A stretch of 50,492 bases of DNA from NCBI GenBank assembly GCA_946548715.1, contig CAMNPZ010000006.1, positions 1 through 50,492 on the forward strand. Direction: 5' to 3'. Numbering within the stretch: the stretch's first letter is position 1; the number at the start of each line of letters is the position of its first letter. Positions 1,406 to 10,304 of this stretch are shown here, piece after piece. A program made the position numbers and the translations under genes. The DNA is from an uncultured Candidatus Saccharibacteria bacterium (GTDB lineage: Bacteria; Patescibacteriota; Saccharimonadia; Saccharimonadales; Saccharimonadaceae). The notes below the pieces were generated by a model that did no database searches, was not told the DNA's origin, and saw nothing but the letters and a program-made list of their open reading frames with translations.

Positions 1406-4400
1406 ATGAAATTTGCATCAAGTTATGAACCGAATCAATACGAAGCAGATATTTATGGCGCTTGGGAGGCAGCCGGCATTTTTGACCCTAAAATCACTAC
1501 CAAACCAGTCGACGACGATGGTGACGGCATCGACGACCGGATTGAGGATGGACTCGAAAATAACACTTTCGAGACCGTCCGCGACAACGAGATTGAACAG
1601 TTCGACGAAACGGAAGCTATCGCCGAATCTGAGGGGGTTCGGAGCGCGGCAGCGCGAGAAGTAGCGCCAGCCGCCCATGGCGATGGGCCGGCTGGACGCG
1701 CCCCGAAGATCGGCGATAGTTCCGTTTCTAAAACATTTTCTATCGTCATGCCCCCACCCAACGCCAACGGCAACCTCCACATCGGTCACGGCTTAACTGT
1801 AGCCCTCGAAGACTCTCTTACGCGTTACTATCGTCTTCGCGGTGCCTCCTCTTGGTACATCCCTGGTGCTGACCATGCCGGCTTCGAAACCTGGGTCGTT
1901 TATGAACGCAACCTCGAGGCACAAGGCCACACTCGCTTTGAATTTGACCGCGATGAACTCTACGCCCGCGTCTGGAATTTCGTCGCCGAGCAACGCGGCA
2001 ATATGGAACTCCAGCTCCGCGCTCTTGGCGCCTCCTGTTCTTGGGATGACCTCACCTTCACACTTGATGAAAACGTCATTGACCGTGTTTATACGACTTT
2101 CGAGAAAATGTGGAACGACGGCCTCATCTATCGCGGCGAAAAACTCGTCAACTTCTGTCCAAAGCACCAAACCGCCTTCGCCGACATCGAAGTCGAACAC
2201 AAAGACGAAAAAGGCACCCTCTGGGACATTGAGTACAAACTATCAGATGAGCCCGAAAATAACACTTTCGAGACCGTCCGCGACAACGGGAGCGGGATGA
2301 GCGAGGAGCCCCGTGACGACGGGCGCGACGAAGCGAGTCGAGAAAGTGTTATTTCGAGCTCGCTGGTGGTTTCTACTACTCGTCCCGAGACCCTTTTTGG
2401 CGACGCCGCTGTCGCTGTGAATCCTAACGACGAACGCTACAAGGATTTAATCGGCAAACACGTCAAGCTTCCCCTAACCAACAGAACCATCCCCATTATT
2501 GCCGACGAACACGCTGACCCTGAATACGGTACCGGCGCCGTCAAGATTACTCCTGCCCATGATCACGACGATTTCGAAGTCGGTGAGCGGCATAATCTTC
2601 CCCGCCTCCAAGTCATATCCGAGGATGGCCACATGATCAATGTTCCCGAGGAATACAATGGCCTCACTACAACCGAATGTCGCAAAAAGGTTCTAAAGGA
2701 CCTTAAGGACCAAGGTCTCCTCGTCGGCGAAAAGAAAATTGTTCATTCAGTCGCTCATTGTTATAAATGCGGCACGGTTCTCGAACCAATGCTAAAGAAA
2801 CAATGGTTTGTTGATGTCGAAAAACTCGCCAAAACCGCCATCGAGCATCTCGAAAACAATGAAATTAAATTCCATCCCGCGAGCAAGAAGAAAGTTCTCA
2901 TCAACTACCTCAAAGGCCTCAAAGATTGGAACATCTCCCGTCAAATCCCTTGGGGCATCGCTATCCCAATGTTCCATCAGGTGGGTGTCGAAGAAACGTC
3001 AGAAAATGTTCATTCGAGACCTTCCGCGACTAACGAGGAGCGGGGGAGCGAAGTCTCGCCCGTAACGACCGCTGTAGGAGCCGAGCAGGCAGAAAGTTTA
3101 CTTTCTGCGTCGAGGCGACGCCCAGCGGACGACTTATGGTCGACGGGCCGAGACGAGCGTGTCGAGAATGAATCATTTCTGACGTCTAATCGCCTAGCTA
3201 CTGATGAGCCCGACTGGATCTTCGATCGTCGTACCAACCTCAAGGAAATCGAAAAAGCTGGCGTGAAATATGTCAGAGACGAAGATACCTTCGATACCTG
3301 GTTCTCGAGTTCGCACTGGCCCATCGTTTGCACCAACTGGACCGAGGAAAACTTCAACCCCTATTATCCACTCAACGTCATGGAAACTGGCGCCGATATC
3401 CTATTTGCCTGGGTAGCCCGTATGCTCATGATGGGTCTCTACGTCACAGGCGAAGTTCCCTTTAAGGAAGTCTACCTCCACGGCCTCGTCCTTGACGCCC
3501 ATGGCCAGAAAATGAGCAAAAGCAAAGGCAACGTAATAAACCCCATGGATCTTGTTACGAAATATGGCTCCGACGCCTTCCGTCTCGGTATTTTGCGGGG
3601 CCGTTCCGCCGGTATGAATCAAGCTTTCTCTGAACAATCCGTCATCAGCGGCCGCAATCTCTGCAATAAACTTTGGAACATCTCCCGCCTCATCCAATCC
3701 CTCATCGACGAAAATGCGGACGGAAAGGCGGAAACTATTATCGAATCTGAGGGGGTTCGGAGCGCGGCAGCGCGAGAGGTAGCGCCGGCCGCCCATGGCG
3801 ATGGGCCGGCCGGACGCGCCCCGAAAATCGATAATAGTTCCGCCTATACCACCGATTATATGGGTGAAGACTGGATCTGCCGCGAGCTAAACAACTGCTT
3901 GTCTCAACTCGAAGACGACATGAAGAACTATCGTTTCTCCGAAGCTGTCGAGACGTTGTACCAAACCATTTGGGACAAATACGCCGACTGGTTCCTCGAA
4001 TCGCAGAAGATTTACAAAAACATCCCACTCCTGAAGCAAACTCTCGAAACCCTATTAATCGCTCTTCATCCCTTCGCTCCGTTCGTCACCGAGGCAATCT
4101 GGCAGAACCTAAGTTGGACAAACGGCTTCATCGCTACTGCCAAATGGCCCGCCAGGCTCAAATATGACCCCATTTCAGCCGAAGAGTTTGAAAACATAAG
4201 AAATATCGTATCCGAAGTCAGAGGCACCTTGCAGGCCCTTCCAGGCACCAATAACGCCAAAAAATACGGCCTACTATTCAACAATGATAGCCTCATCCAG
4301 GACAACCAAATGCTAATCAAGGTCCTTACCAAGGTCCCAACCATTAATAACCTTGATGGCGCCCCACGTGGCCTCCGGCTAGCCCTAGCCAACCATGAGC

Positions 4401-4621
4401 TCTATCTAGATGTCCCCGAAAAAGTCGTCACAGAATACAAAGATGCTCTTACCGAACGTATCCTCGCTGTCGGCCGCGAGCTCGATGCTCTAAATCTCAG
4501 GATGAGCAATCCGAATTACGTCGAACGCGCCCCCGCTCACCTCGTCAAAGAAACCCAGGACCAGATTGCAGAAAAAGAGCAACTCATTTCTCGCCTCAAA
4601 ACCCAACAAAGTCTCATTTAA
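1406..4621 (+). CDS. valS: Valyl-tRNA synthetase with in-frame palindromic insertions
   Basis: A class I aminoacyl-tRNA synthetase charging tRNA-Val. Visible features: HIGH signature as HIGHG (about residue 125) after SIVMPPPNANGNL, editing-domain motif STTRPETLFGD, ISRQIPWG, TWFSSSHWP, KMSKS (702-706), an anticodon-binding region, and a C-terminal coiled coil typical of ValRS. At 1071 residues it is well above the usual 850-950. The surplus is explained by four insertion sites that interrupt ordinary ValRS sequence without breaking the frame: before the HIGH region (about residues 50-107), before STTRPETL (283-317), before the DTWFSS region (530-594), and at the start of the anticodon-binding domain (774-813). 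Each is palindromic at DNA level and none contains a stop. All lie where ValRS orthologues have loops or variable linkers (my judgement from memory of the family). As the host gene is essential, the enzyme presumably tolerates them, or they are removed or bypassed. Confidence 0.95.
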   Translation: MKFASSYEPNQYEADIYGAWEAAGIFDPKITTKPVDDDGDGIDDRIEDGLENNTFETVRDNEIEQFDETEAIAESEGVRSAAAREVAPAAHGDGPAGRAPKIGDSSVSKTFSIVMPPPNANGNLHIGHGLTVALEDSLTRYYRLRGASSWYIPGADHAGFETWVVYERNLEAQGHTRFEFDRDELYARVWNFVAEQRGNMELQLRALGASCSWDDLTFTLDENVIDRVYTTFEKMWNDGLIYRGEKLVNFCPKHQTAFADIEVEHKDEKGTLWDIEYKLSDEPENNTFETVRDNGSGMSEEPRDDGRDEASRESVISSSLVVSTTRPETLFGDAAVAVNPNDERYKDLIGKHVKLPLTNRTIPIIADEHADPEYGTGAVKITPAHDHDDFEVGERHNLPRLQVISEDGHMINVPEEYNGLTTTECRKKVLKDLKDQGLLVGEKKIVHSVAHCYKCGTVLEPMLKKQWFVDVEKLAKTAIEHLENNEIKFHPASKKKVLINYLKGLKDWNISRQIPWGIAIPMFHQVGVEETSENVHSRPSATNEERGSEVSPVTTAVGAEQAESLLSASRRRPADDLWSTGRDERVENESFLTSNRLATDEPDWIFDRRTNLKEIEKAGVKYVRDEDTFDTWFSSSHWPIVCTNWTEENFNPYYPLNVMETGADILFAWVARMLMMGLYVTGEVPFKEVYLHGLVLDAHGQKMSKSKGNVINPMDLVTKYGSDAFRLGILRGRSAGMNQAFSEQSVISGRNLCNKLWNISRLIQSLIDENADGKAETIIESEGVRSAAAREVAPAAHGDGPAGRAPKIDNSSAYTTDYMGEDWICRELNNCLSQLEDDMKNYRFSEAVETLYQTIWDKYADWFLESQKIYKNIPLLKQTLETLLIALHPFAPFVTEAIWQNLSWTNGFIATAKWPARLKYDPISAEEFENIRNIVSEVRGTLQALPGTNNAKKYGLLFNNDSLIQDNQMLIKVLTKVPTINNLDGAPRGLRLALANHELYLDVPEKVVTEYKDALTERILAVGRELDALNLRMSNPNYVERAPAHLVKETQDQIAEKEQLISRLKTQQSLI
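1556..1590 (+). repeat. Left half of palindromic element, copy A1 (in valS)
   Basis: This stretch is identical to the first 35 bases of the element at 2255, including its left arm GAAAATAACACTTTCGAGA and core CCGTCCGCGACAACG. The matching right arm is absent here; after about 20 further bases element B1 begins. It reads as the residues ENNTFETVRDN in the same frame as copy A2. Confidence 0.8.
1611..1724 (+). repeat. Palindromic element copy B1, in frame in valS
   Basis: A 114-bp element. The outer arms CGGAAGCTATCGCCGA and TCGGCGATAGTTCCG are mutually complementary (one bulge); inner stems are TTCGGAGCGCG/CGCGCCCCGAA and GCCAGCCG-CCCAT/ATGGG-CCGGCTGG around a GGCG loop. The core is nearly identical to B2 (3727-3844), but the outer arms differ. 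The core encodes a 28-residue peptide identical in both copies. Confidence 0.9.
2255..2355 (+). repeat. Palindromic element copy A2, in frame in valS
   Basis: About 101 bp, in the CP1 editing domain. Left arm GAAAATAACACTTTCGAGA and right arm TCGAGAAAGTGTTATTTC are complementary. The inner ends (TTCGAGACCGTCCGCGAC on the left; GACGGGCGCGACGAAGCGAG followed by TCGAGAA on the right) are shared with elements C1 and C2, so A and C belong to one family with different interiors and arms. Confidence 0.9.
2996..3185 (+). repeat. Palindromic element copy C1, in frame in valS
   Basis: About 190 bp. The outer arms (left ACGTCAGAAAATGTTCATTC; right GAATGAATCATTTCTGACGT) are complementary. The interior holds a perfect hairpin GCAGAAAGT-TT-ACTTTCTGC (3089-3108), a second hairpin CGGG-GAG/CTC-CCCG, and the block GAGGCGACGCCCAGCGGA. 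The interior is almost identical to C2 in the P-type ATPase gene, whereas the outer arms are not. Confidence 0.92.
3727..3844 (+). repeat. Palindromic element copy B2, in frame in valS
   Basis: The core is almost identical to B1. The outer arms GGCGGAAACTATTATCGA and TCGATAATAGTTCCGCC pair with each other but differ from those of B1. Inside the stem the pair A1669-T1693 of B1 is replaced by G3787-C3811. All four core differences from B1 fall at third codon positions and are silent. Confidence 0.92.
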
Positions 4622-4649
4622 GAAATGCGGGCACCAAACCACCATCTCG

Positions 4650-4658
4650 TGGTAGAAT
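4650..4658 (+). promoter_or_regulatory. Extended -10 box, leaderless architecture (DUF3137 gene)
   Basis: TG-G-TAGAAT followed by exactly six bases and the ATG at 4665. Transcription should begin at or next to the start codon. Confidence 0.65.
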
Positions 4659-4664
4659 GATACT

Positions 4665-5585
4665 ATGAACTTCCAATCAGTTGAGGACGCCCGCAAGGCC
4701 TATGCTAAGAGGCTTATTTGGCAATGGGCAATCTTTGGAATCATACTCGCAGTTGCCACCATTATCTGTATAGCCAGCAAAGATCCAGATTCATTATTCA
4801 TGCCGTTTTTCTTAGGCTTCTTCTTTGGGGTTCTATGCTTCATCATCATGAGTTTTATTAATCGCAACGTCCATCGTCAATATCGTCGCGCTTACAAAGC
4901 TTATTTTGTCGAGCAAAACCTCCGAAAAATCTTTACCGACCTCAGTTACAATCATGAACTCGGTCTGAGCTCGACCGCCCTCAATCTTATCGGCATGATT
5001 AACACAGGCGATCGCTATTCCTCTAATGATTTCACCAAAGGCAAATATAAAGATGTCGCTTTTACTCAAGCCGATGTCCACATCGAAACAGAATACACCG
5101 ACTCCGACGGCGATACTCATTACACGACTATTTTCAGGGGTCGTTTCATGATTTTTGAATTTCCCAAACAGTTCAATTTTAAGCTCGCCGTTGTTGGTAA
5201 ACGTTTCCGTGCCTATCGAAATCCAGGCAAAAACGCCAAAACCGGCCAAAAAACCGAAAGAATATCCACCGAATCCAACGAATTCAACCGCATGTTCTAT
5301 ATCTATGGACAAGACGGCTTTGAGGCTTATTATATCCTCGATCCTGCTTTCATGGTAAAACTAATGAACATCGCCACGGCACACAAAAACAAAGTGCTCT
5401 TTGCATTCTATGCGAACTACCTTATAGTTGGACTCGATGATGGCAAAGACTCCTTCGAACCACCTTCACCTCTCAAGCGAATCGATGAAGCTAAAGAATC
5501 CGCCACAGTTGCTGGCGAAATTAAAACCATCACAGAATTCGTTGACCAGCTTTCCCTGTCTCGCAAGTATTTTAAGTCAAACTAA
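4665..5585 (+). CDS. DUF3137-like membrane protein
   Basis: A 306-residue protein with two closely spaced N-terminal membrane segments (about residues 20-37 and 43-64) and a long soluble part. The layout and motifs such as FRGRFMIFEFPKQF, FNRMFYIYGQDGFEAYYIL and ANYLIVGL resemble the DUF3137 family, whose function is unknown. It follows valS by 43 bases but has its own extended -10 box six bases before the ATG, so it is probably an independent leaderless unit. It may be a membrane-bound protein with its C-terminal domain in the cytoplasm; topology is inferred only. Confidence 0.7.
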   Translation: MNFQSVEDARKAYAKRLIWQWAIFGIILAVATIICIASKDPDSLFMPFFLGFFFGVLCFIIMSFINRNVHRQYRRAYKAYFVEQNLRKIFTDLSYNHELGLSSTALNLIGMINTGDRYSSNDFTKGKYKDVAFTQADVHIETEYTDSDGDTHYTTIFRGRFMIFEFPKQFNFKLAVVGKRFRAYRNPGKNAKTGQKTERISTESNEFNRMFYIYGQDGFEAYYILDPAFMVKLMNIATAHKNKVLFAFYANYLIVGLDDGKDSFEPPSPLKRIDEAKESATVAGEIKTITEFVDQLSLSRKYFKSN

Positions 5586-5619
5586 TCAAAAAACAGTATG
5601 TCAAACCGTGACGTAAAAA

Positions 5620-5648
5620 TTGACAAAACAATAGAAGCATGGTATACT
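5620..5648 (+). promoter_or_regulatory. Consensus promoter of orphan gene at 5745
   Basis: TTGACA (5620-5625), 17-bp spacer, TATACT (5643-5648). A leader of about 90 bases follows. Confidence 0.8.
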
Positions 5649-5744
5649 AAAACAAATGTAATTGCACCTTAGGAAGAATTTGGCTCTACTCAAAGTACTA
5701 ATGTGCATACATTTAAATGCTGTACAAACGAAAGGGGGATGAAG

Positions 5745-5999
5745 ATGAGGTACGGTATTTATAAAAAAATGAATTATAGGTATGCTCGGCACGGCATACC
5801 AGAGACCCTGATAGCAGTAATCGGGAAAGGCGATTTGGAAAGCTTTGTGGCAGAATTAGAAAAACGTGGCTATACTGGCCATTTCGCCTGCAACAGAGGA
5901 CACTATGTGGAGTTAAACAACAAAGGAATGGAGTTCCATATTTTCCCCTACAAAGGACCAAAAAATCCCATCGGGGACTGGAGAACTCTCCTCAAATAA
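5745..5999 (+). CDS. Small orphan protein, 84 residues
   Basis: Not recognised. It is 84 residues, basic and aromatic-rich (starts MRYGIYKKMNYRYARHG), with a segment GDLESFVAELEKRGYTGHF that looks like a helix-turn and a C-terminal strand-rich region. I chose the ATG at 5745 because AAAGGGGG ends six bases before it; ATGs at 5703 and 5739 are badly placed relative to that site. The gene stands alone between a consensus promoter and a perfect terminator. Its sense strand is relatively G-rich, unlike neighbouring + strand genes, which hints at recent arrival. Confidence 0.7.
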   Translation: MRYGIYKKMNYRYARHGIPETLIAVIGKGDLESFVAELEKRGYTGHFACNRGHYVELNNKGMEFHIFPYKGPKNPIGDWRTLLK

Positions 6000-6003
6000 T
6001 ATT

Positions 6004-6029
6004 AACCCCTAGGCTCGCCTAGGGGTTTT
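6004..6029 (+). terminator. Rho-independent terminator
   Basis: A perfect 10-bp stem AACCCCTAGG/CCTAGGGGTT with a CTCG loop, running into TTTT. Confidence 0.9.
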
Positions 6030-6077
6030 AAAATCCGCTAATTCCCTTCCGCCCCAAAAACCCACGTACAGACAAAA

Positions 6078-6287
6078 TCATTTCGCCTCAAATCTCTGCA
6101 AATTAAACATAGGTGTTCCCTTTTCGGCATCTATGGTTTTTTGTGCTTCTAACATTAGTTTGCGCAGCGCTTTTTCAGATGAAGCGGAACCAATATGCAC
6201 AGTTTTTACTACACGATTCCCTTCCTTATAGCATACCTGCACTCCAGTTGCACCCGAGGTAGTCTTAAACTTCCGTATATAGGCCAT
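6078..6287 (-). pseudogene. N-terminal fragment of an IS1634-type transposase
   Basis: The 69-residue product (starts MAYIRKFKTTSGATGVQVCY, then HIGSASSEKAL) resembles the first 60-70 residues of IS1634/IS4-group transposases, where AYIR..K..SGATAVQ and HIGSAH are typical. No catalytic DDE domain follows, and I see no inverted repeats or remaining transposase sequence nearby. It nevertheless keeps an intact reading frame and an extended -10 box (TG-C-TAAAAT) exactly six bases before the ATG, so it may be an expressed domesticated small protein. The resemblance is from memory of the family. Confidence 0.6.
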
Positions 6288-6293
6288 AGCCTA

Positions 6294-6302
6294 ATTTTAG
6301 CA
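6294..6302 (-). promoter_or_regulatory. Extended -10 box, leaderless architecture (transposase fragment)
   Basis: On the - strand TG-C-TAAAAT, six bases, then the ATG at 6287. Confidence 0.55.
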
Positions 6303-6329
6303 CAACTTACGCGATAGTTCTCCGTCGAG

Positions 6330-6371
6330 TTATACACAAGCAGGATGGATTTCGACACAACCTTATCCACA
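6330..6371 (+). other. Two perfect DnaA-box sequences
   Basis: TTATACACA (6330-6338) and TTATCCACA (6363-6371), both matching TTATNCACA, in the same orientation and 33 bp apart, inside the 500-bp gene-free region. An A+T-rich stretch lies about 270 bp downstream (6637-6668). They may bind DnaA for regulation or titration. I see no strand-composition switch here, which argues against a replication origin. Confidence 0.4.
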
Positions 6372-6438
6372 ACAACCATAAACACAACTACAAACTGTTC
6401 CCCGTTCTGCTAGCAACCGCTTAGCTTAGCAACCGCGC

Positions 6439-6467
6439 TTGACAAAAAATCCCGCTTGCGCTAAAAT
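6439..6467 (+). promoter_or_regulatory. Consensus promoter in the 6.3-6.8 kb gene-free region
   Basis: TTGACA (6439-6444), 17-bp spacer, TAAAAT (6462-6467). No open reading frame begins downstream, so it probably drives a non-coding RNA. Confidence 0.65.
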
Positions 6468-6472
6468 CAAAC

Positions 6473-6612
6473 CAACAACTGAAGGCAAAGCCGCCAGTTG
6501 GGAGAATTAGCAACCGAGATTTGAACGAAAAGGTAGGACGAAACGCGAAAATATCAGCAAAATCCTCCGGGCTCCCACATCAGGGAAAAGCTAATCTCGT
6601 TCATATTTAACC
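6473..6612 (+). ncRNA. Candidate structured RNA, type unknown
   Basis: Downstream of a consensus promoter and without a plausible reading frame. It begins with a hairpin CAACTG-AA-GGC-AAA-GCC-GC-CAGTTG. Further possible pairings are GGGAG with CTCCC, TTAGC with GCTAA and GAACGA with TCGTTC; the last two cross the first, as in a pseudoknot. I could not match it to tmRNA, RNase P RNA, 6S or SRP RNA. The 3' end is uncertain. The rest of the gene-free interval (6613-6773) shows only an A+T-rich stretch with the direct repeat ATAAGCATAA and a short hairpin GTTG-AAAAA-CAAC. Confidence 0.35.
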
Positions 6613-6773
6613 GTCTCGAAAAACAGCCGGTAGATTTTCATAAGCATAAAATAAATAAGCATAAGCCGTCAAACAAATTCACATGTCGGTATCTTCAGAG
6701 ACGACGCAAACAGTGACAGGGAAGTGTTGAAAAACAACTAATGGAAAACTAAAGCATTTTTAAGCTCAAAAAG

Positions 6774-6782
6774 TGTTATAAT
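6774..6782 (+). promoter_or_regulatory. Extended -10 box, leaderless architecture (femAB-like gene)
   Basis: TG-T-TATAAT; the ATG at 6790 follows after seven bases. An ATG at 6784 is only one base away and would lie upstream of the likely transcription start. Confidence 0.65.
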
Positions 6783-6789
6783 AATGACA

Positions 6790-7725
6790 ATGAACATACC
6801 AATTACACAATCTGAGGCGTGGCACAAACTCCAGAAAGCTCTAGGTGAACAGAGTTTTATTGAATCCAATAAGGACTATTCTTACTTAGCTATTCTCAAA
6901 CACACCCCAGTAGGGAACTACCTTTATTGCCCATATGGCCCATGTTACGAAACAAAGCAGGGTTATCAGCAATCAATCGATTCTCTCACCAAGCTAGCCA
7001 GGGAACATCGAGCCATTTTTATCCGCATCGAACCTCAAGATCCTACATTCAAATCATACGCACCAAAATCCGCCAAGAAGACCAAAGACCTAAACCCCAA
7101 AGAAACCTGGCTCCTTTCACTCGAAGGGACAGATGACGAGCTCAGGGCTAAATTGCCCTCACGGCTACTCCGATATTATAAGTCCGCCTCGAAGAAGGGA
7201 ATTACCATAGAAAAATCTCGCAATCCTGATGACATCCGCCATCTAGTCAATCTACAGGCCGCCATGGCAAAAGAAAAGGGAATCAGTATTTTTTCCGAAA
7301 AATACCTCAAAACCGAGCTGAGCCAACCGTTCGCCACATTGTATTTGGCTAAGTATCATGACTCAGATACTAACAAGGAAGATATCATTGCGGCTGGGCT
7401 CGTATTTGATGATGATATCACAAGGTATAATCTCCAAGGCGCCCAATCCGACCAGGGCAGGAAACTGCATGCTACCGGAATTTTAACCAATCAACTCATT
7501 CTCGACGCGAAAGCAAAAGGTCTCAAAACCTTCGATTTCTGGGGTATCGCCCCAGAAGGAGCTCCCTCCAATCACCCCTGGGCTGGCTTCACGAATTTCA
7601 AGAAAACCTTTGCTGGCTACGAGCAAGATTACGCCGGCACCTATGACATCGTCCTAAAGCCAGCCAAATACAAGCTTTACCAGTCCACTCGCAAACTCAA
7701 CCGCATTCTCAGGAAAGCAAAATAG
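6790..7725 (+). CDS. FemAB/FemX-like peptidoglycan-bridge aminoacyltransferase
   Basis: A 311-residue protein with a split GNAT (FemAB) layout. The C-terminal signature FDFWGIAPEGAPSNHPWAGF followed by NFKKTFAGYEQDYAGTYDIVL is characteristic of FemX/FmhB-type enzymes, which add amino acids from aminoacyl-tRNA to the lipid II stem peptide at the inner membrane face. The N-terminal half (YLYCPYGPCY, IFIRIEPQDP) fits too. The length is shorter than staphylococcal FemA/B (about 420) because the tRNA-binding coiled coil is missing, as in FemX of lactobacilli. I start at 6790 rather than 6784 because of the -10 position. It is separated by two bases from the following ATPase gene, so the pair forms an operon. 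Confidence 0.85.
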   Translation: MNIPITQSEAWHKLQKALGEQSFIESNKDYSYLAILKHTPVGNYLYCPYGPCYETKQGYQQSIDSLTKLAREHRAIFIRIEPQDPTFKSYAPKSAKKTKDLNPKETWLLSLEGTDDELRAKLPSRLLRYYKSASKKGITIEKSRNPDDIRHLVNLQAAMAKEKGISIFSEKYLKTELSQPFATLYLAKYHDSDTNKEDIIAAGLVFDDDITRYNLQGAQSDQGRKLHATGILTNQLILDAKAKGLKTFDFWGIAPEGAPSNHPWAGFTNFKKTFAGYEQDYAGTYDIVLKPAKYKLYQSTRKLNRILRKAK

Positions 7726-7727
7726 CC

Positions 7728-10304
7728 ATGAATCTGCAAGGTCTCACGTTGGCGCAAGTCGAATCCAAAATCCGCGAAGGCAAAGTTAATCATGTCCCGC
7801 ATAAGCAACATAATACCATCACGAGAATCATTCTCAAGAATACCCTCACTATTTTTAATCTCGTCAACCTTGTCCTTGCTATCATGGTTCTCCTCGTTGG
7901 CTCTTACAAAAACCTCCTCTTTATTATCATCGCCATAGCTAACACTCTAATCAGCATCATTAACGAAATTCGCGCCAAGCACACTATCGACAAACTCAAA
8001 CTCATCTCTGAGCAAAATCCCACCGTCATCAGGGAAGGCAAAACAATCCAAATCCCCGCCGAAGATCTCGTGGAGGGTGATCTCGTCATTTTTAGTCTCG
8101 GCGACCAAATTATCGTCGATGCAAGAGTGGAAGCGGGTACCGTAGAAGTTAACGAATCCTACATTACTGGCGAACAGCGTAGCGTTGCAAAAAACCAAGG
8201 CGATAAGCTCATCTCCGGTTCCTTCGTGGTCTCTGGCACCTGCAAAGCCACCGTCACCGCTGTTGGTGCCAAATCCGAAATCGCCAAGCTCGAGCAAAAT
8301 GCCCATACCATCAAAACTGCCAACAGTAAGCTCTTTAGCCTCATGAATAACATCGTCAAATATATCAGCTTCGCTCTTATCCCAATCGGCGCCCTCCTCC
8401 TCTGGTCACGCTTTCGCGTGGAAAATACTACTACCGAAATTGCGGTTACAAGCACCGTCGCAGCCCTAATTAATATGATACCAGAAGGTCTCATTCTCCT
8501 TACCTCAAGCGTTCTCGCTCTCGCCACCATTAGGCTAAGCAAGAAAAAGGTCCTTGTTCAAGACCTCTACTCTATCGAAACCCTCGCTCGCGTCGACACT
8601 ATCGCTCTCGACAAAACCGGTACACTCACCACCGGCAATATGACCGTCCATGATTTTATCTTACCAGATGGTACCACGCTCGACAAACCCTCCAAATCGC
8701 CAACCCCCGCCGAAAAATCCTTCCTGAGCGCATTAAACGCCATCCTAAGCCACCAGACTGCCGAAAACGCAACCACAACCGCTTTGAAACGAAAGTTCCT
8801 CAAAACAGCAAAATCTGAGCCCACAGAGCAAATCCTCGAAACCATCAGTTTCTCCTCCGAGCGCAAGCATTCCGGCATTAAGACAAAAGACGCTACCTAT
8901 CTCCTCGGTGCCATCGATTTTGTCACCGACGACCCTGCCATTATTAAGCAAGTAAAAGATGCCTCCGGCCCCTACCGCACCCTAGCAGTGATAAAGCATG
9001 AAAGCATATCTGAGGAGGCCAAAAATGGCTTATCGAAGGGGGTTCGGAATATGCCAGAAAACGTTCATTCGAGACCGTCCGCGACTAACGAGGAGCGGGT
9101 TGAGCGAGCTCGCCCCGTAACGACCGCTGTAGGAGCCGAGCAAGCAGAAAGTTTACTTTCTGCGTCGAGGCGACGCCCAGCGGACGACTTATGGTCGACG
9201 GGCGAGAGCGAGCGAGTCGAGAATGAACCGTTTTTGGCATATTCCGACCAGCTTCTAGGTTTCATCCGTCTCGAAGACGAAATTCGCCCCGACGCCAAGC
9301 AAATCATCGACTATTTCTATGATAATAATATCGACGTCAAAATCATCTCCGGCGACGACCTCGACTCGGTAAGGGGCATCGCCTCCCGTGTCGGCATCAA
9401 AGACCTAAAAGGCCTCAACCTCTCCGACGAGCCCAGGCCGAACTACAATAAACTTGTCAAAGACTACTCCATCTTTACCCGTGTCACTCCGAGTCAAAAG
9501 AAAGAGCTTATCAAAGCTCTCAAGAAACAGGGAAGCACCGTCGCCATGACCGGCGACGGTGTTAATGATATTCTTGCCATGAAAGAGGCCGACGTCAGCC
9601 TCGCCATCGGCGAAGGCTCCGACGCCGCCCGCCGTTCCGCCAAAATGGTTCTCCTCAGTTCTGATTTTTCGGCAGTCCCAAGCATCATCGACGAGGGGCG
9701 CCAATCCATCAACAATCTCGAACGCTCCACTGCTCTCTTCCTCACGAAGACCATCTACGCTTCCATCCTTGCTGTCATCTTTGTCTTCCTCCCATTTAAC
9801 TATCCCTTTACGCCCATCGAAATGTCTCTTCTAAACTTCGCCTGTATCGGCTTCCCAGGCCTCGTTTTGGCTCTCGAGAAAAACACTGACCGTATCAAAA
9901 ACCGCTTCATTCGCAACATTCTTACCTATTCCTTCCCAGTCGGACTTACTGTTTCCATCTGTATGGCAGCTCTATCCATTGTTTCTCATCTTCAAGGCTT
10001 CACTCACCACGAGCTTACCACAATATCTGTTTTTGTGACTTTTACCATCGATTTAATCCTCATCTACTGGCTTTCTCGCCCGCTTACCCCGCTCCGCGCC
10101 GGTCTATTTTTCACAATTATCGGTATCATGGTTGCCGCCTTCGCTATTCCATTAATCCGTGAATTCTTCGAATTTGTCATCCTAAGCCCTGCCAATCTCA
10201 TCGTTCTTGGCGCTACTATCGTCGGCGGCCTCATCCTCTTCTTCCTCTTAAAAACCCTTATGTCTTGTCTCAGCAACCGCCTCCTCGGCCCCTCCAATCT
10301 CTAG
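7728..10304 (+). CDS. P-type cation-transport ATPase (CtpE-like) with in-frame insertion
   Basis: An 858-residue P-type ATPase. Motifs: A-domain TGE (about residues 147-149), M4 motif PEGL, phosphorylation site DKTGTLT (Asp about 295), TGDGVND (about 608-614) and a C-terminal bundle of membrane helices. The arrangement and lack of N-terminal metal-binding domains resemble mycobacterial CtpE, implicated in calcium uptake; the ion here is inferred. Between the nucleotide-binding domain (ending near EEAKNGLSK) and the conserved LLGFIRLEDEIRPDAK segment lies an insertion of about 70 residues encoded by palindromic element C2 (9041-9249). It is nearly the same element as C1 in valS and read in the same frame. 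The gene follows the FemAB-like gene by two bases. Confidence 0.9.
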   Translation: MNLQGLTLAQVESKIREGKVNHVPHKQHNTITRIILKNTLTIFNLVNLVLAIMVLLVGSYKNLLFIIIAIANTLISIINEIRAKHTIDKLKLISEQNPTVIREGKTIQIPAEDLVEGDLVIFSLGDQIIVDARVEAGTVEVNESYITGEQRSVAKNQGDKLISGSFVVSGTCKATVTAVGAKSEIAKLEQNAHTIKTANSKLFSLMNNIVKYISFALIPIGALLLWSRFRVENTTTEIAVTSTVAALINMIPEGLILLTSSVLALATIRLSKKKVLVQDLYSIETLARVDTIALDKTGTLTTGNMTVHDFILPDGTTLDKPSKSPTPAEKSFLSALNAILSHQTAENATTTALKRKFLKTAKSEPTEQILETISFSSERKHSGIKTKDATYLLGAIDFVTDDPAIIKQVKDASGPYRTLAVIKHESISEEAKNGLSKGVRNMPENVHSRPSATNEERVERARPVTTAVGAEQAESLLSASRRRPADDLWSTGESERVENEPFLAYSDQLLGFIRLEDEIRPDAKQIIDYFYDNNIDVKIISGDDLDSVRGIASRVGIKDLKGLNLSDEPRPNYNKLVKDYSIFTRVTPSQKKELIKALKKQGSTVAMTGDGVNDILAMKEADVSLAIGEGSDAARRSAKMVLLSSDFSAVPSIIDEGRQSINNLERSTALFLTKTIYASILAVIFVFLPFNYPFTPIEMSLLNFACIGFPGLVLALEKNTDRIKNRFIRNILTYSFPVGLTVSICMAALSIVSHLQGFTHHELTTISVFVTFTIDLILIYWLSRPLTPLRAGLFFTIIGIMVAAFAIPLIREFFEFVILSPANLIVLGATIVGGLILFFLLKTLMSCLSNRLLGPSNL
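9041..9249 (+). repeat. Palindromic element copy C2, in frame in the P-type ATPase gene
   Basis: About 209 bp including arms. The left arm (GGTTCGGAATATGCC, then AGAAAACGTTCATTCGAGA) pairs with the right arm (TCGAGAATGAACCGTTTTTG, then GCATATTCCGACC). The interior is nearly identical to C1, including GCAGAAAGT-TT-ACTTTCTGC and GAGGCGACGCCCAGCGGA. The left arm is preceded by GGGGGTTCGG, a junction also seen at the left of B1 and B2 in the same frame. The right arm continues directly into conserved ATPase sequence, so the left arm may be an inverted copy of the host flank. Confidence 0.92.

Follow-up and report, generated by a model that had tools for sequence, protein, structure and literature searches.

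The window analyzed here, the whole stretch of 50,492 nt, is contig C6 of a 781,578-base Saccharibacteria genome that is 95.6% complete. Two genes on its + strand harbor palindromic inserts whose edges were set by alignment with genus orthologues. Four lie in valS (1406..4621, +), a valyl-tRNA synthetase (ValRS) ORF of 1071 aa recognized from its frame, its genus orthologues and its alignment with T. thermophilus ValRS 1gax, and the fifth lies in a P-type ATPase ORF of 858 aa (7728..10304, +) supported by orthologues. In valS, insert 1 (1541..1726, +; 62 aa) begins with the left half of an A element and continues with a complete B element, B1, whose hairpin together with its site-specific stem spans 1607..1728 (+), as delimited by the outermost long-range pair and the family B search. 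Insert 2 (2243..2359, +; 39 aa) is an A-type element, matched by a covariance model at 2259-2352 with 114 bits. Insert 3 (2984..3196, +; 71 aa), defined also by its fold and a DNA search, is C1, an element of A type in which a further hairpin, D (3069..3128, +), is nested inside the apical loop of hairpin P3. Insert 4 (3713..3844, +; 44 aa) is a B2 element, found by the family B search, with its site-specific stem. The ATPase insert (9000..9248, +; 83 aa) comprises C2 and, at ~9031-9046, part of the 5' end of a B element, and hairpin D is again nested within C2 (9124..9183, +); both copies of D were read from the sequence and the fold.

All five inserts contain whole codons and zero stops, and both ORFs stay open throughout. 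Relatives at the same sites either lack the segments or carry different palindromes in the same loops, and when 1gax was aligned with the valS product (E 7.4e-147), the four ValRS inserts fell in alignment gaps. The three inserts folded alongside shuffle controls fold far better than the shuffles, with -100.2 kcal/mol (z -8.2) for valS insert 1, -97.1 kcal/mol (z -5.7) for C1 and -111.2 kcal/mol (z -7.6) for C2, and in each case 0/200 shuffles were as good. These results bear out the initial annotation, in which five in-frame, stop-free palindromic inserts had been described in valS and the ATPase gene at nearly these positions; the orthologue alignments that it proposed yielded the extra segments listed above and placed the left edge of the ATPase insert ~40 nt further to the left than described. 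Its claim that C1 and C2 are nearly the same element in unrelated genes also holds, with 92% identity over 123 nt (B1 and B2 share 85% over 133 nt). The element named A1 in insert 1 proved to be a half element, and the division into types A, B and C was revised: C corresponds to an A element whose apical loop holds a second hairpin, and A and B belong to one structural superfamily. Of two objections raised in advance, ordinary conserved domains are at odds with the absence of the segments from orthologues and, for ValRS, from 1gax, and an assembly artefact is unlikely because such elements recur in valS of dozens of independently assembled genomes. An AlphaFold model of ValRS built on a genus-only alignment reached a mean pLDDT of 53, too poor for judging the loops, and the structure was left unused.

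Further copies were sought across the genome with C2 and B1 as DNA queries and with R1, a covariance model trained on A-type copies, and the stretches around the matches were read. Eight well-aligned copies served for the model, since variation in loop length displaced the columns of a MAFFT alignment of A-type copies and left its consensus fold poor. Since R1, trained on A copies alone, also recovers B copies, both families were assigned to one structural superfamily, which occupies 53 distinct places in the ~0.78-Mb genome. Among the 52 readable copies, 46 lie within ORFs of at least 228 aa, none of which is broken, although one of these 46 (L007) may sit just upstream of a start codon. The intragenic share of copies (0.88) against the coding density of the window (~0.89) is what random landing would give, and genes are thus not avoided. 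The host genes, which from their protein sequences we take to include those of ValRS, ArgRS, IleRS, LeuRS, TyrRS, Obg, TopA, LigA, UvrB, UvrC, a PcrA-like protein, PriA, PolA, GyrA, RarA, Der, QueA, GatA, a RumA-like protein, a RecX-like protein, PepN and the ATPase, are mostly essential; five of them encode aminoacyl-tRNA synthetases and many act in replication and repair, with no common theme except conservation. Two cores (L041 and L042) are identical in sequence in unrelated genes. Genic copies are oriented 33 sense to 13 antisense (p about 0.005 against an even split); this excess of the G·A strand in mRNA occurs despite the antisense frames of the reference cores being at least as open. 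The six intergenic copies are L009, L012, L014, L038, L008 and L310; L009 lies directly 3' of an ORF end, its stem ending in runs of A and T, and might act as a terminator.

The element core measures ~74-80 nt (~100-210 nt overall with its arms), and its mean G+C of 0.74 contrasts with 0.48 for the window. A short outer stem, interrupted by a tandem G·A internal loop, leads to two hairpins, P2, with a second tandem G·A loop and an NNCG-type cap, and P3, with a U[NNCG]A cap and, optionally, a further hairpin nested in its loop. In an alignment of 69 distinct copies from this genome and its relatives, 96.5% of the cells are paired, both-sided changes occur at 26 of 28 pairs, and the cells with both-sided changes number 490, whereas shuffles give 122 and sliding the partner gives no more than 91. 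Because the alignment was fitted to the model structure, these pair counts are inflated, a bias that the slide and shuffle controls address only partly. Less dependent on that fitting are the two tandem G·A internal loops, left unpaired in 54/69 and 49/69 copies, and the P3 cap, which is AACG, GACG or GGCG in all copies save one. The folded strand of the element is therefore conserved, and the G·A strand has probably been selected in its folded form, because plain palindrome repair would erase such mismatches. A conserved G·A fold suggests that the folded strand is itself recognized or used.

The second hairpin of ~60 nt within the P3 apical loop, seen twice in the window (3069-3128 and 9124-9183), also occurs in L003, L004, L006, L039 and L047. 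Because it is present in both A-type elements and B-type ones (L006, L039, L047), this nested hairpin may be a mobile hairpin targeting the first element.

Outside the core, each copy is enclosed by a site-specific stem of roughly 15-45 bp. The flanks of each core pair mutually with a median score of 20, while flanks exchanged between copies never exceeded 12 in 1406 swaps, and the longest exact inverted match at the ends is 10.3 nt, against 5.6 nt in swapped flanks. Direct target-site duplications at the ends were absent (5.7 vs 5.6 nt in swapped flanks), and so were terminal repeats common to the copies, the outer arms differing at every site and yet pairing. With native boundaries set by orthologues diverged by tens of percent, one arm at some sites repeats native host sequence in inverted form. 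The Obg copy (L015) has a left arm, GAGGTCAGCAAATTAGAGC, that inversely repeats the native right flank, GCTCTAATTGCTGACCT, where the conserved residues IADLT are encoded. In the PepN copy (L046) it is the right arm that repeats the host inversely, over ~40 nt of the conserved native left flank encoding DIVLSNMPEVK, and the gene resumes at FEPTP. The stem aligner used in this comparison was loosely scored and over-extended the arms, which makes the exact arm lengths upper limits. Stem parts also appear to fall in native codons in LigA, LeuRS, TopA and UvrC. Only a minority of sites shows an arm of clear host origin. At RarA (L035), IleRS (L013) and further sites, neither side of the stem is native, which means that it arrived with the insert or that its origin has been lost.

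Two broader rules about the stems were considered and rejected. One held that each stem repeats its immediate flank in inverted form, which is true at some sites only. Nor do the elements seem to pick pre-existing native inverted repeats: native flank complementarity, compared at 19 sites with automatic boundaries, was 7.8 in element-bearing alleles, 5.9 in empty orthologues and 5.4-5.6 at control positions, so that empty sites (5.9) resemble random positions (5.6). In UvrC (L045), both stem arms encode conserved residues, LVVPN and LELPT, and an orthologue without this element (L277) possesses an inverted repeat there too, though a shorter one.

The distribution of the elements among relatives points to rapid turnover. 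Flank queries against twelve genus genomes recovered orthologous sites for most hosts and located the elements in loops that vary among orthologues, such as IRL-SHD-FVAKGE in TopA and LKRAIKAEK-ASKRV-TKKAL in RarA. The insertion in the RumA-like gene is common to a near relative, G062 (L255); the LigA, UvrB and PepN sites are reused by different elements in relatives, and at the TyrRS site a relative has the same core with a different stem. On a tree of 80 ValRS genes, in which inserts of at least 25 aa were counted, the N-terminal site required 16 changes among 17 carriers, site 2 required 17 among 21, and site 4 required 24 among 47, or 40 changes when element types were distinguished by a crude motif classification. 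Large palindromic inserts unmatched by R1 were seen at ValRS site 4 in L165, L173 and L130, and further unmatched palindromic inserts were seen at the N-terminal site or sites 2 and 4 in L150, L152 and L180; these are perhaps other element families at the same loops.

At a larger scale, the covariance-model search proposed at the outset found the elements to be nearly universal in the genus, with R1 matches in 88/103 same-genus genomes. Elsewhere in the family they are sparse, with 13 matching genomes spread over five other genera, and among 393 sampled genomes of the class R1 matched none that lies beyond the family. The named relatives are Candidatus Saccharibacteria mostly from ruminant gut, including Candidatus Nanosyncoccus alces, and the literature searched contained no report of such elements in Saccharibacteria. 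The initial proposal of a self-spreading class of in-frame coding palindromes is supported by the number of copies, by orthologous sites that are empty, by cores that recur unchanged between unrelated genes, by the spread through the genus and by the turnover seen on the ValRS tree; movement itself is suggested here by sequence comparison.

The way in which genes accommodate these elements bears on what the inserts become. Families A and B use nine orientation/phase combinations, and consequently no particular encoded peptide is conserved; the high G+C of the cores leaves most frames open. What all 46 genic copies have in common is an ORF that remains open and in frame across the element, with conserved host sequence resuming in frame on both sides, and the valS inserts of relatives likewise keep the frame without stops. 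An open frame across every genic copy is expected only if the ribosome reads through, which argues for translation of the inserts as extra protein loops, one of the two fates that had been envisaged. The other, in which the inserts would be spliced from the RNA or skipped by the ribosome in a byp-like manner, giving a protein without them, could draw on strong hairpins that bring both gene segments together and on the palindromic inserts translationally bypassed in Magnusiomyces mitochondria, as cited in PMC6649704. Under that scenario, however, the constraint to keep the frame and avoid stops would be unnecessary, and an Rfam search with the element returned no match, introns included; we regard it as very improbable. 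The fold could also be kept for a function in the mRNA (e.g., stability or translation rate), making the copies domesticated regulators rather than selfish elements. Covariation, the conserved G·A motifs and the excess of sense copies would agree with this explanation, but the 13 antisense genic copies would form no G·A fold in the mRNA, presence at each site shifts rapidly between species, and a shared theme among hosts is missing beyond conservation, all of which makes such a role improbable.

Regarding the mode of spread, transposase-mobilized MITEs or REP-like repeats, with ends recognized by a transposase acting in trans and long stems that are incidental, would share with these elements a small, palindromic, dispersed form and no coding capacity of their own, and some B copies have a GTAG before the hairpin, as in GTAG-type REPs. 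Nevertheless, while Y1 (RAYT) transposase genes (PF01797) were present in 2/60 genus genomes, none was matched in this 95.6% complete genome, and the copies show neither direct target duplication nor conserved terminal repeats, their arms being site specific yet paired; this origin seems rather unlikely. Retrotransposition by a reverse transcriptase would suit the conserved RNA-like fold, and RVT_1 proteins were found in 38/60 genus genomes (frames of ~380-400 aa, e.g., L325-L328). Even so, no RVT_1 was detected in this genome despite its 53 occupied places, and G026 and G070, both without RVT_1, have 8 R1 matches each, so that this is the least probable of the explanations weighed. We favor instead, with reasonable though incomplete confidence, mobile, translated palindromes, similar to those of Rickettsia, with fold-back template switching as the process that both forms their arms and refreshes them. 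Template switching is known to make and repair RNA stems, generating reverse-complement copies and multi-base compensatory changes (PMC8794818). Such an element would be a mobile, probably non-autonomous, structured palindrome that enters genes about as often as chance allows, with in-frame, stop-free copies at protein loops surviving and presumably being read as extra loops of the host protein. At the replication fork, the nascent strand bearing the element would fold into its hairpin, and the folded strand would copy one flank as the other arm before returning to the template, producing an inverted instead of a direct target duplication; the same switching could later renew the arms. Template switching alone would erase the conserved G·A mismatches, and a further selective role of the fold is thus needed. 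More tentatively, and with odds that we place below even, the elements could spread with no transposase of their own, by template switching at the replication fork: a conserved strand-specific fold, with its tandem G·A mismatches and NNCG caps, would seed fold-back copying of host sequence, giving each copy a private stem, extended into conserved codons, and a rapid turnover in the same loops of essential proteins.

These results describe a genus-wide invasion of conserved genes by structured palindromes that, judging from their open frames, are probably translated and whose mode of spread is possibly new. The leading example of selfish DNA within translated genes has long been the Rickettsia palindromic elements (RPEs). 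The Saccharibacteria, a distant lineage whose genomes are tiny, provide a larger and better sampled case, in which the many genomes available allow insertion, growth and loss to be traced site by site, and the system constitutes a natural experiment on the tolerance of foreign peptides in essential enzymes. It also joins two fields so far apart, mobile elements and template-switch mutation.

The palindromic elements of Rickettsia and Wolbachia (WPEs) are small dispersed palindromes between and within conserved genes, with which they are fused in frame (PMC2229807; PMC10969869), and the RPE-bearing gmk product has been reported as translated and active (PMC2229807). RPEs are described as having a conserved peptide, 12-bp terminal repeats and a repeat identity that fades with time (PMC10969869, PMC2229807, PMC6649704). 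Compared on these described features, the Saccharibacteria elements resemble RPEs and WPEs as dispersed palindromic repeats forming a long hairpin (about 100-150 bp there, ~100-210 nt here) and in their in-frame, stop-free insertion into conserved protein genes (46/52 copies here). Apart from the host lineage, they differ from RPEs in using nine orientation/phase combinations rather than a conserved peptide, in having site-specific arms rather than a shared 12-bp terminal inverted repeat, and in a pairing maintained with covariation rather than decaying. The Rickettsia parallel drawn by the initial annotation thus extends to behavior and stops at arms, reading frames and maintenance of structure, and since those three RPE features are missing, we call the elements RPE-like instead of RPEs. 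Bacterial MITEs (Correia/NEMIS, ERIC, RUP) are likewise non-autonomous, ~100-200 bp long and hairpin-forming, with some in-frame fusions (PMC2229807). In contrast to them, the elements described here are mostly intragenic and have no terminal inverted repeat common to copies and no direct target-site duplication. REPs are extragenic and RAYT-linked; REPs and REPINs share structured hairpins and many copies with our elements, which differ in being intragenic in 46/52 cases in a genome without a Y1 transposase. The byp elements and introns need neither frame nor stop-free sequence, whereas all genic inserts here leave the ORF open. The coding palindromes of Nematomorpha mitochondria are also long inverted repeats within functional genes; they are actively maintained, and template switching has been proposed for them (PMC6649704). 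In that case host coding sequence itself is perfectly repeated and the palindromes share no mobile core, whereas the Saccharibacteria elements have a conserved mobile core in their middle. Finally, template-switch mutations have been described as a mutational process (PMC8794818), and here the same process is proposed as a means by which a mobile element may spread.
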